Below, one piece after another: positions 16,760 through 42,636 of a DNA stretch of 64,000 nt. A program made the position numbers and the translations under genes. Source of the stretch: a virus; IMG/VR virus record IMGVR_UViG_3300031957_002648, positions 1 through 64,000 of that record. The stretch is one strand, 5' to 3'. The notes under the pieces are model-generated. The model ran no database searches. It had not been told where the DNA came from and saw only the letters and a program-made list of their open reading frames with translations. How positions within the stretch are numbered: the stretch's first letter is position 1; every line of letters starts with the position of its first letter.

Positions 16760-16782
16760 TATCTATAAAGCCACTCATTGGA

Positions 16783-16867
16783 TGCGAGTAGGGAGACTTG
16801 AACTCCCACGACCGTAATGGTCAACAGATTTTAAGTCTGGTGCGTCTACCGATTCCGCCATACTCGC
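16783..16867 (-). tRNA. tRNA-Leu (UAA)
   Basis: This is an 85-nt class II tRNA. The acceptor stem GCGAGTA/TACTCGC is perfect, the anticodon loop is CTTAAAA giving UAA, a long variable arm (GTTGACCATTACGGTC region) is present, and the T-loop is TTCAAGT. The discriminator is A and CCA is not encoded. It reads UUA and UUG, which are abundant in an AT-rich phage. It is last in the tRNA operon. Confidence 0.95.
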
Positions 16868-17047
16868 AAGGCATTACACTTATCCGAATGCTTGCTATGG
16901 GGCAATTAAACCCAACATTCTGATAGTTTGTAATGGAGTAGGACAGGGGTCCACCCTGAACATCCAAAGGGGGCTGATTCCCAACTACAGGGTTTCGGTA
17001 TATCCGAACCGCTGGGCACCTTTGGTTGGAACGTCTCAAGTTCCTTA
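16868..17047 (-). ncRNA. Candidate structured RNA within tRNA operon
   Basis: These 180 bases lie between tRNA-Met and tRNA-Leu and hold no tRNA and no convincing ORF, yet they fold well. In plus coordinates: GGAAC/GTTCC (17028-17032 with 17040-17044); CCAAAGG/CCTTTGG (16964-16970 with 17019-17025) enclosing CCCA/TGGG (16980-16983 with 17013-17016) and GGTTTCGG/CCGAACC (16991-16998 with 17004-17010); CAGGG/CCCTG (16944-16948 with 16954-16958); and a long hairpin with CATTACA/TGTAATG (16872-16878 with 16929-16935) plus TATC/GATA and GAATG/CATTC. This resembles in position the T4 stable RNAs C and D of the T4 tRNA cluster. Function unknown. Confidence 0.6.
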
Positions 17048-17120
17048 TGCTTCCTGAGAGGATCGAACTCTCCTTAGGCGAATTATGAGTTCGCTGCATT
17101 CACCAGATTGCTAAGGAAGC
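17048..17120 (-). tRNA. tRNA-Met (CAU)
   Basis: This is a 73-nt tRNA with a perfect 7-bp acceptor stem (GCTTCCT/AGGAAGC), anticodon stem GCGAA/TTCGC, loop CTCATAA (CAU) and T-arm GAGAG-TTCGATC-CTCTC. The fully paired first base pair argues for an elongator, not an initiator. A lysidine-type tRNA-Ile2 is possible, but a separate UAU tRNA-Ile is present beside it, which favours Met. Confidence 0.9.
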
Positions 17121-17123
17121 AAA

Positions 17124-17195
17124 TGGTTCTGCCGAGAATTGAACTCGGTTCACACGCTTATAAGGCATGGGCTTTAACCAATAAGCAACAGAACC
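17124..17195 (-). tRNA. tRNA-Ile (UAU)
   Basis: This is a 72-nt tRNA: acceptor GGTTCTG/CAGAACC, D-stem GCTT/AAGC, anticodon stem CATGC/GCGTG with loop CTTATAA (UAU), T-arm CCGAG-TTCAATT-CTCGG and discriminator A. It would read AUA directly, which many bacteria do with a lysidine-modified CAU tRNA instead. It is the first tRNA in the operon, four bases ahead of tRNA-Met. Confidence 0.9.
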
Positions 17196-17202
17196 ATCAA
17201 AC

Positions 17203-38160: not shown

Positions 38161-38188
38161 AGTATAGCACAAAAAAAGAGGGTCGCAA
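38161..38188 (-). promoter_or_regulatory. Sigma70-like promoter fused to terminator
   Basis: TTGCGA (38183-38188), 16 bases, TATACT (38161-38166) on the minus strand. The -35 lies in the loop and right arm of the terminator at 38171-38195, and the T-run is the spacer. GTGCTATACTAGGC is identical to the tRNA-operon promoter. Confidence 0.65.
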
Positions 38189-38195
38189 GACCCTC
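38171..38195 (-). terminator. Intrinsic terminator
   Basis: On the minus strand GAGGGTC-TTGC-GACCCTC, a perfect 7-bp stem with a four-base loop, is followed by seven T. It ends transcripts of the small genes at 38202-38722. Confidence 0.88.
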
Positions 38196-38201
38196 TTGAA
38201 T

Positions 38202-38294
38202 TTATTTATAGAGAAATTTTATTTCTCTATAGATCAGAAACATGATAGCAATACAACCTAGGGATATGATCCCACTAATTTGTAATGCTTGCAT
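38202..38294 (-). CDS. Single-pass membrane peptide, 30 aa
   Basis: This 30-residue ORF begins two bases after the preceding stop (TGACATG). It has a hydrophobic segment at residues 8-21 (G-I-I-S-L-G-C-I-A-I-M-F-L-I) and a basic end. The size resembles small photosystem or cytochrome subunits, but no specific match is recognised. Its codons end just ahead of the terminator. Confidence 0.5.
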   Translation of the reverse strand: MQALQISGIISLGCIAIMFLIYREIKFLYK

Positions 38295-38295
38295 G

Positions 38296-38460
38296 TCACT
38301 TAGCGTAAGTGTGACCGCGATAGCAGAATGTGCCGTGAACTTCTTCACCGCTCTGCTTGCACTCATACTCAACACCACGATAGGCTGTCATAGCAATCTG
38401 TGCATCGTGAAGAGCAGAAGCCTTTTGAATCTGCTTTCTGATCATATTGAGTGTGTTCAT
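38296..38460 (-). CDS. Small conserved protein, DUF4278-like, 54 aa
   Basis: The ATG at 38460 has AGGAG eight bases upstream, which fixes the start; the longer frame is not supported. The product (M-N-T-L-N-M-I-R-K-Q-I, then Y-R-G-V-E-Y-E-C and H-G-T-F-C-Y-R-G-H-T-Y) carries two Y-R-G repeats typical of the DUF4278 family in cyanobacteria and their phages (recalled, not searched). Function unknown. Confidence 0.75.
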   Translation of the reverse strand: MNTLNMIRKQIQKASALHDAQIAMTAYRGVEYECKQSGEEVHGTFCYRGHTYAK

Positions 38461-38527
38461 TGGTAGTCTCCTAAAAGAATGGAAAGTTAACCTTCTCTGC
38501 CGTAGCAGGATCCGTTTTCCCGTTCCT

Positions 38528-38722
38528 TCAGTCGTGTGCGTCCTTGGTATCAAAACAACTGGGTTCAGTATGTTCGATCCATCTTGTGATGATATCAAAC
38601 TTCTGAGAAGGAGTAAACAGAGTAGAACTCTGAATTCCTTCTTTTAACCATTCATAGTCTTCACACCGAAGATAATCTTCAGGTGGGACATGCATGAATA
38701 ACACAGTCAGCAGTGATAACAT
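38528..38722 (-). CDS. Riboswitch-controlled small protein, 64 aa
   Basis: This short ORF begins 2 bases after a downstream-peptide-type riboswitch region. A GGAG at ten bases upstream could be its ribosome binding site. The product (M-L-S-L-L-T-V-L-F-M-H-V-P-P-E-D-Y-L) has a short hydrophobic start, then W-L-K-E-G-I-Q-S-S, Q-K-F-D-I-I-T-R-W-I-E-H and S-C-F-D-T-K-D-A-H-D. The start may also be the second Met. In cyanobacteria such RNAs precede peptides linked to nitrogen control, so a nitrogen-status regulator is a fair guess. Confidence 0.65.
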   Translation of the reverse strand: MLSLLTVLFMHVPPEDYLRCEDYEWLKEGIQSSTLFTPSQKFDIITRWIEHTEPSCFDTKDAHD

Positions 38723-38723
38723 A

Positions 38724-38810
38724 GGATGAACGCTCCGTTCCGCGACTTACTTGCGTCCTGTGGCGTCTTTCTAGACTATCTGCCTAGCGACTACCACCCG
38801 GATGAACGTA
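38724..38810 (-). ncRNA. Probable glutamine-type (downstream-peptide) riboswitch
   Basis: The leader between promoter 38816-38844 and the 64-residue ORF holds CGTTCATCC (38808-38800) and GGACGCAAGTAAG (38758-38746), close to the C-G-U-U-C-A and G-G-A-C-G-x-A-A-G-U-A-G-G cores of the glnA/downstream-peptide RNAs. Between them a stem forms: TCC/GGA, GTGG/CCAC, GTC/GAC and CTAG/CTAG. A second CGTTCATCC (38732-38724) near the start codon can pair with the preceding GAACG to form a hairpin holding the GGAG. That offers a simple on/off switch. The class was known upstream of short peptides in marine cyanobacteria and a phage. Confidence 0.6.
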
Positions 38811-38815
38811 TGGCC

Positions 38816-38844
38816 ATTATATGACCTTTCGATTATTTAGTCAA
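38816..38844 (-). promoter_or_regulatory. Sigma70 promoter of riboswitch operon
   Basis: TTGACT (38839-38844), 17 bases, TATAAT (38816-38821) on the minus strand. Transcription would begin near 38809, at the first conserved CGTTCA of the riboswitch. Confidence 0.82.
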
Positions 38845-42490: not shown

Positions 42491-42589
42491 ACCATCAGGG
42501 AAATGGTGGAGTTACTATTTCCTGTCACCCTTAGACAGGATATGAGAGACGTGCTTTATACACCCTATAGGTCTCGGTTTACGGGGTGT
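42491..42589 (-). promoter_or_regulatory. psbA leader with three hairpins
   Basis: The psbA 5' leader can form ACACCC/GGGTGT (42560-42565 with 42584-42589), TCCTGTC/GACAGGA (42520-42526 with 42534-42540) and ACCAT/ATGGT (42491-42495 with 42503-42507). The last lies 22 bases before the start codon. No clear Shine-Dalgarno precedes the ATG. Confidence 0.55.
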
Positions 42590-42636
42590 TACAATGGATT
42601 AAAAACCGTTACGTTTCTTAACCCGTTGACCTATTT

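Follow-up and report, generated by a model that had tools for sequence, protein, structure and literature searches.

A putative strand-swapped double glutamine-I-like aptamer enclosing a small open reading frame in cyanophages

The locus in the window and among cyanophages

The window analyzed here, a stretch of 64,000 nucleotides, belongs to a 76,087-base virus record (IMGVR_UViG_3300031957_002648) and carries psbA, psbD, and the PhotoRC-II RNA, which identify the virus as a marine T4-like cyanophage. Searching the window against Rfam at the gathering thresholds returned only PhotoRC-II and tRNAs. The PhotoRC-II RNA (positions 42507-42601, minus strand, 80.2 bits) lies directly 5' of psbA, as is ordinary in cyanophages, and the genes for tRNA-Leu(TAA), tRNA-Met(CAT), and tRNA-Ile(TAT) are clustered at 16779-17196, also on the minus strand.

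All features of the locus considered here are on the minus strand. A sigma70-type promoter (38816-38844), composed of TTGACT (38844-38839), a 17-nt spacer, and TATAAT (38821-38816) and found with the same spacing in most relatives, is predicted to start the RNA at ∼38809, one base ahead of the first copy of CGTTCATCC (38808-38800). A hairpin loop and stem region (38759-38799) separates this copy from GGACGCAAGTAAGTCGCGGAACG (38758-38736), which is followed by GGAG (38733-38736), the second copy of CGTTCATCC (38732-38724), and an open reading frame (ORF) of 64 codons with an ATG start (38528-38722; phrog_13397). Farther downstream lie a predicted competing hairpin (38471-38531), a DUF4278-like gene for a 54-residue protein with two YRG motifs (38296-38460; phrog_545), and a terminator-like hairpin with a T-run (38171-38197) that, judging from its sequence, would end the transcript. 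The initial annotation had listed the promoter, CGTTCATCC, an intervening stem, the second motif, and the small ORF in that order, and all of these elements exist as described, on the minus strand. They are, however, half of a larger object: a second GGACGC...GGAACG strand (38543-38521), which shares bases with the final codons and the stop of the 64-codon ORF, had been overlooked. The motif CGTTCAYCC occurs twice in the 64 kb (mean of 0.41 in shuffled sequences, with two copies reached in 6 of 100), and GGACGCAMR-gap-GGAACG also occurs twice, against an expectation of 0.

Two further features accompany the locus. The upstream regions of the window (38811-38833) and of its relatives contain an inverted repeat centered on the -10 box, mostly 9 to 12 bases ahead of CGTTC. 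Perfect 6-bp arms are present in 87 of the 129 nonredundant upstream regions (shuffles: mean of 7.4, maximum of 14), and the arms vary in sequence with their complementarity kept (GGTCTATAATAGACC, TGTGTTAGTATTAACACA, TATGGTATAATTACCATA); the copy in the window, GGTCATATAATGGCC, is imperfect. A short hydrophobic peptide (MQALQISGIISLGCIAIMFLIYREIKFLYK) may be encoded at 38202-38291 (minus strand), in the gap that separates the DUF4278-like gene from the terminator, and similar peptides are found downstream in loci L238 and L188.

Hundreds of cyanophage sequences share this arrangement, among them those of cultured laboratory phages such as Syn9. Blast matched 364 phage records, all of them from Synechococcus or Prochlorococcus phages or cyanophages, and scanning viral contigs for the pattern and for the proteins enlarged the set of loci to 439 sequences. 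Three forms can be distinguished among the relatives: a single classic glutamine-I aptamer, an ORF-less double form, and a double form with an ORF between its last two strands, B5 and B3 (see below). The double element is read as phage-specific, since among 84,980 prokaryote genomes it was found in only 7 stretches, at least one of which, QCLS01000003.1, matches a viral contig in size (189,106 bases).

Nested pairing and class assignment

Two CGUUCAUCC strands (A5, 38800-38808; B5, 38724-38732) and two GGACGC...GAACGG strands (A3, 38736-38758; B3, 38520-38543) flank and overlap the 64-codon ORF, which has its UGA stop within B3. In general form, A3 reads GGACGCAAGUA-P3-GGAACGG and B3 reads GGACGCA-P3-GAAGGAACGG. 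Covariation among the relatives argues for two interlocked three-way junctions. The outer aptamer would consist of A5:B3 (P1), A5:A3 (P2), and A3:B3 (P3, common to both junctions), and the inner one of A3:B5 (P1', which hides the GGAG) and B5:B3 (P2', which closes over the ORF). In the window, outer P1 would pair 38808-38804 of A5 with the GAACG of B3 (38525-38521), and outer P2 would pair 38802-38800 with the GGA of A3. P3 would be formed by AGUCG (38747-38743) and CGACU (38534-38530), P1' by GAACG (38740-38736) and 38732-38728, and P2' by 38726-38724 and the GGA of B3 (38543-38541). In addition, A3 supplies the pocket CGC and the AAGUA of loop E, and B3 supplies the CGC of the inner pocket, the GAA of loop E, and G38520 for a pocket pair.

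The clearest compensatory change is seen in P1'. Of the distinct elements with a readable A5, 166 have GAACG/CGUUC in P1' and 42 have CAACG/CGUUG, with no mixed pairs; the scan that collected the latter class left the fifth base of B5 free. Elements without a readable A5 add 41 and 5, respectively, and A5 and B3 stay CGUUC/GAACG in both classes. The GAACG-GAG-CGTTC hairpin, in which the initial annotation had let the second CGTTCATCC hide the GGAG, is thus backed by variation in the relatives. These counts take in related sequences; in a tree built from the downstream gene, only 6 independent P1' pairs fall on well-supported branches, all of them concordant (P = 0.03). Being adjacent, A3 and B5 could also co-move by recombination.

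The other helices vary across the ORF. P3 occurs as AGUCG/CGACU, AGUCA/UGACU, AAUCG/CGAUU, and AGACU/AGUCU, with further changes in the longer-P3 class, and the P2 helices change from UCC/GGA to UCU/AGA (12 outer, 6 inner) or CCC/GGG (4 inner). In two distinct inner aptamers, the pocket pair matching C19:G41 in the crystal structure of glutamine-II (PMC6698751) is swapped to G:C; the other pocket letters are invariant in both junctions. No AAGUA/GAA loop-E motif is present in the inner aptamer. Outer P1 is constant in all double forms; homology, the alignment by Rfam, and exclusion are therefore the grounds for its assignment. In several single glutamine-I aptamers (L348, L350, and L352 to L356), P1 is CGUUG/CAACG, so that the CGUUC/GAACG pair covaries in the single form, too.

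When 27 distinct short-P3 cores were aligned as concatenated blocks with the intervening sequence cut out, the nested fold paired 99.8% of the cells and included 6 pairs changed on both sides, a result that none of 500 shuffles equaled. For side-by-side aptamers in the same cores, the figure was 95.6%, and 12 of the 27 rows had neither P1 helix intact. Side-by-side aptamers and a glutamine-II pseudoknot both lost to the nested fold on the alignment.

In the covariance-model search that the initial annotation had named as its own test, the window itself scores below the cut-offs of both glutamine models, with 15.6 bits for RF01704 (glutamine-II, downstream-peptide; cut-off of 33) and 14.3 bits for RF01739 (glutamine-I, glnA motif; cut-off of 35). 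Among relatives, all three single and three ORF-less double forms searched pass RF01739, the latter with 46.4 (L161), 43.6 (L275), and 37.3 (L202) bits, and none of the six is above the cut-off for RF01704 (best score, 28.1 bits). In L161 and L275, RF01739 aligns to A5, P2, and A3 as far as P3, leaves out ∼40 bases, and continues with the P3 strand and the GAAGGAACG of B3. In these two of the three ORF-less relatives, the alignment is the outer nested aptamer; in L202, which has the lowest score, it covers only the inner B5-B3 part. Since the ORF-less relatives pass RF01739 and none passes RF01704, the element is assigned on sequence grounds to a glutamine-I-like class; the kinship with glutamine aptamers proposed in the initial annotation holds, and its downstream-peptide label does not. 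The features of glutamine-I, namely P1 CGUUC/GAACG, P2 UCC/GGA, and the AAGUA...GAA loop E around P3, are present in A5, A3, and B3 combined. The hallmark of glutamine-II, a GAACG in the P2 hairpin loop that forms a pseudoknot with CGUUC, is absent, because covariation gives A3:B5 and exclusion gives A5:B3. Very probably, the element works like glutamine-I aptamers and derives from them, as a double, strand-swapped version with an ORF in the inner P2 loop.

The enclosed ORFs and the downstream gene

In all 222 ORF forms, the stop codon lies within B3. An ATG is found 10 or 11 bases past the start of B5 in 198 of them, and 21 have no in-frame ATG. The 179 distinct nested proteins comprise 35 to 66 amino acids; exactly two cysteines are present in 178, the N terminus includes a hydrophobic stretch in 76%, and 175 end with DA plus one to three residues, a C terminus dictated by the RNA strand B3. 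The protein of the window conforms to this pattern, with a hydrophobic N terminus, two Cys residues, and the C-terminal KDAHD encoded by B3. In the short-P3 class, the P1' loop contains GAG (giving GGAG) in 157 of 191 ORF forms versus 1 of 12 ORF-less forms. This distribution is as expected for a ribosome-binding site, and the GGAG is the likely one of the nested ORF. The nested protein has no Pfam match and matches only families of unknown function in PHROGs. Its predicted structure is a helical hairpin (pLDDT, 83.6) that has no match in the PDB (best E value, 2.1).

The outer P2 loop can be occupied as well. In ∼50 loci (e.g., L138, L255, and L282), the hairpin region between A5 and A3 is replaced by a second ORF for a small two-cysteine protein that starts ∼10 bases after A5 and stops at or within A3, either with a TAG over the first G of A3 or with the TAA in AAGTAA. 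In Syn9 (outer slot L221:1290-1517), both slots are filled (gp196 and gp197), with gp198 next. If transcription begins at A5, the outer-slot ORF has scant leader space.

The initial annotation took the 64-residue ORF for the target of the riboswitch. This ORF does not qualify as a downstream peptide, as it lies within the aptamer, and the conserved gene downstream is the DUF4278-like one (38460-38296). The YRG motif of DUF4278 is found in 243 of the 245 distinct downstream proteins. The gene is termed only DUF4278-like because its product in the window scores 19.2 bits against PF14105, under the Pfam gathering score of 25.3, while genes at the same place in relatives reach 24.6 and 29.5 bits and the families phrog_545 and phrog_5049 match each other. 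In cyanobacteria, DUF4278 covers the N-terminal region of IF17, an inactivating factor of glutamine synthetase; glutamine riboswitches ahead of DUF4278 genes activate expression, i.e., are ON switches (PMC6316151).

Strand B3 has an alternative partner next to this gene. In the window, CUGAAGGAA (38531-38523, in B3) would pair with UUCUUUUAG (38479-38471), which overlaps the Shine-Dalgarno (SD) sequence AGGAG (38472-38468), and B3 can pair at or beside the SD of the downstream gene in 247 of 255 relatives. GAA or AAA in B3 covaries with UUCAGG or UUUAGG at the SD (79:75 versus 0:56; P ∼ 1e-14, uncorrected for relatedness); after tree correction, about 5 of 8 independent pairs agree, which is not significant. 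As predicted from sequence, the aptamer and SD pairings of B3 are mutually exclusive, as in a translational riboswitch. Locking B3 in folding calculations raises the mean accessibility of the SD region in the window from 0.24 to 0.54, yet makes two SD-core bases less accessible; accessibility rises in 184 of the 246 loci folded. The ON direction is thus favored by precedent, while the folding of the window leader is ambiguous on direction.

Proposed mechanism and competing explanations

Comparison of the relatives establishes the nested pairing, the ORF within it, and the conserved alternative pairing of B3 with the SD of the next gene. The explanation that we favor, with a probability of roughly 0.6, is a nested double glutamine-I-like aptamer with an ORF inside, in which B3 would switch between the aptamer and the downstream SD. 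The host-type promoter would start the RNA at the beginning of the double aptamer, and two ligand pockets would arise from exchanged strands, A5, A3, and B3 outside and B5, B3, and A3 inside, around one common P3. The 64-codon ORF would form the inner P2 loop, with its GGAG in the P1' hairpin and its last codons and stop serving as aptamer nucleotides. The RNA is presumed to bind a ligand, putatively L-glutamine, and both the number of binding sites (two) and the direction of the switch are what we infer. High glutamine would lock the double aptamer, turning the nested ORF off and withdrawing B3 from its second site, so that the DUF4278-type protein is made; low glutamine, or ribosomes traversing the ORF, would open the aptamer and flip the balance, ribosomes on the ORF and a folded aptamer being mutually exclusive.

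A glutamine-II riboswitch controlling the 64-residue ORF would account for the weak RF01704 match in the window and for the shared core CGUUCAYCC...CGC...GGAACGG, but nothing exceeds the RF01704 cut-off in the window or the six relatives searched, GAACG is outside any P2 hairpin loop in the covarying fold, and the ORF lies within the element and not after it; this reading is very improbable. Two ordinary tandem aptamers (A5:A3 and B5:B3), pseudo-cooperative and with the ORF merely between the parts, are a further alternative: 157 doublets of glutamine riboswitches have been reported (PMC9481103), CGUUC and GAACG are identical in most sequences and permit either pairing, perhaps as an alternative state, and RF01739 matches the B5-B3 part of L202 by itself. 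Nevertheless, such a tandem would be mismatched in both P1 helices of the 42 distinct CAACG/CGUUG elements, A3 alone lacks the consensus GAA and B3 alone lacks the AAGUA that the two have together, and RF01739 aligns A5-A3-[loop]-B3 in L161 and L275. We regard it as quite unlikely.

It is unlikely, too, that the nested aptamer mainly senses translation, with ribosomes crossing B3 to expose or hide the next start and glutamine sensing lost or secondary. Such a device would fit with stop codons that always fall within B3, with a B3 that can pair at the SD of the next gene, and with ORF slots in both P2 loops, but all pocket nucleotides are either invariant or covarying, and ORF-less and single-aptamer forms also precede a DUF4278-like gene of the same kind. 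An extremely improbable reading is that the repeats are DNA elements, e.g., recombination sites for exchanging small ORFs, with incidental RNA pairing: one slot is indeed filled by different small ORFs, and the flanks are much better conserved than the ORFs, but several helices, to either side of the ORF, show compensatory changes, and the position directly after the promoter is conserved.

With glutamine-I (RF01739), the favored nested double aptamer shares CGUUCAUCC, GGACG-AAGUA, GAAGGAACG, the three-way junction, and the position ahead of DUF4278-type genes, but here P3 leads into a second, strand-swapped junction, the P2 loops hold ORFs, and the window scores below the cut-off. Glutamine-II (RF01704) has the same pocket letters, CGC and GGAACGG, whereas the element has no pseudoknot into the P2 hairpin loop and no match above the cut-off. 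In its crystal, glutamine-II formed a domain-swapped dimer, and the RNA also binds glutamine when assembled from two pieces (PMC6698751); a pocket split between exchanged strands is therefore plausible. Like the common tandem glutamine riboswitches, the element has two aptamer-like units ahead of one gene, but these are interlocked by swapped strands and a common P3 and enclose an ORF; the survey of tandem riboswitches left out arrangements with intervening ORFs (PMC9481103). Glutamine riboswitches have already been reported in cyanophages (PMC9964418, PMC9602691). In the literature accessible here, no description was found of an ORF inside a glutamine aptamer or of interlocked aptamers, and the interlocked fold with its enclosed genes is provisionally considered new. 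Group I introns likewise carry ORFs in their loops, and there, too, a gene occupies a peripheral loop and overlaps the core of a functional RNA. The element described here differs in being a presumed sensor of a ligand and in encoding small proteins that look exported.

Riboswitches are normally read as leaders before genes. In the present case, the sensor encloses the gene, and in hundreds of cyanophage sequences the end of a coding sequence presumably serves as ligand-binding RNA as well. More tentatively, at somewhat under even odds, the locus may be a natural strand-exchanged glutamine aptamer dimer that houses one or two genes for small, exported-looking proteins with two cysteines. Since the stops and last codons of these genes belong to the aptamer, the RNA could either bind its ligand or have the housed genes translated, but not both, and it would toggle between their products and the DUF4278-like one. 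If the nested double aptamer is right, some phage "tandem glutamine riboswitches" may need to be re-read as interlocked double aptamers (the ORF-bearing form in the window escaped the standard covariance search), and viruses of very abundant ocean phototrophs would have a concrete route to couple small-protein expression to the nitrogen state of the host.

A few relatives depart from the basic layout. Contigs L024 and L057 carry two double elements each, and the pair in L024 seems to share strands, possibly forming a chain of interlocked units. In Synechococcus phage S-H68 (L223:1504-2325), the inner slot spans ∼800 bases with two annotated genes, and B5 is degenerate (GCGTAAGC), with the outer P1 and P3 strands intact.
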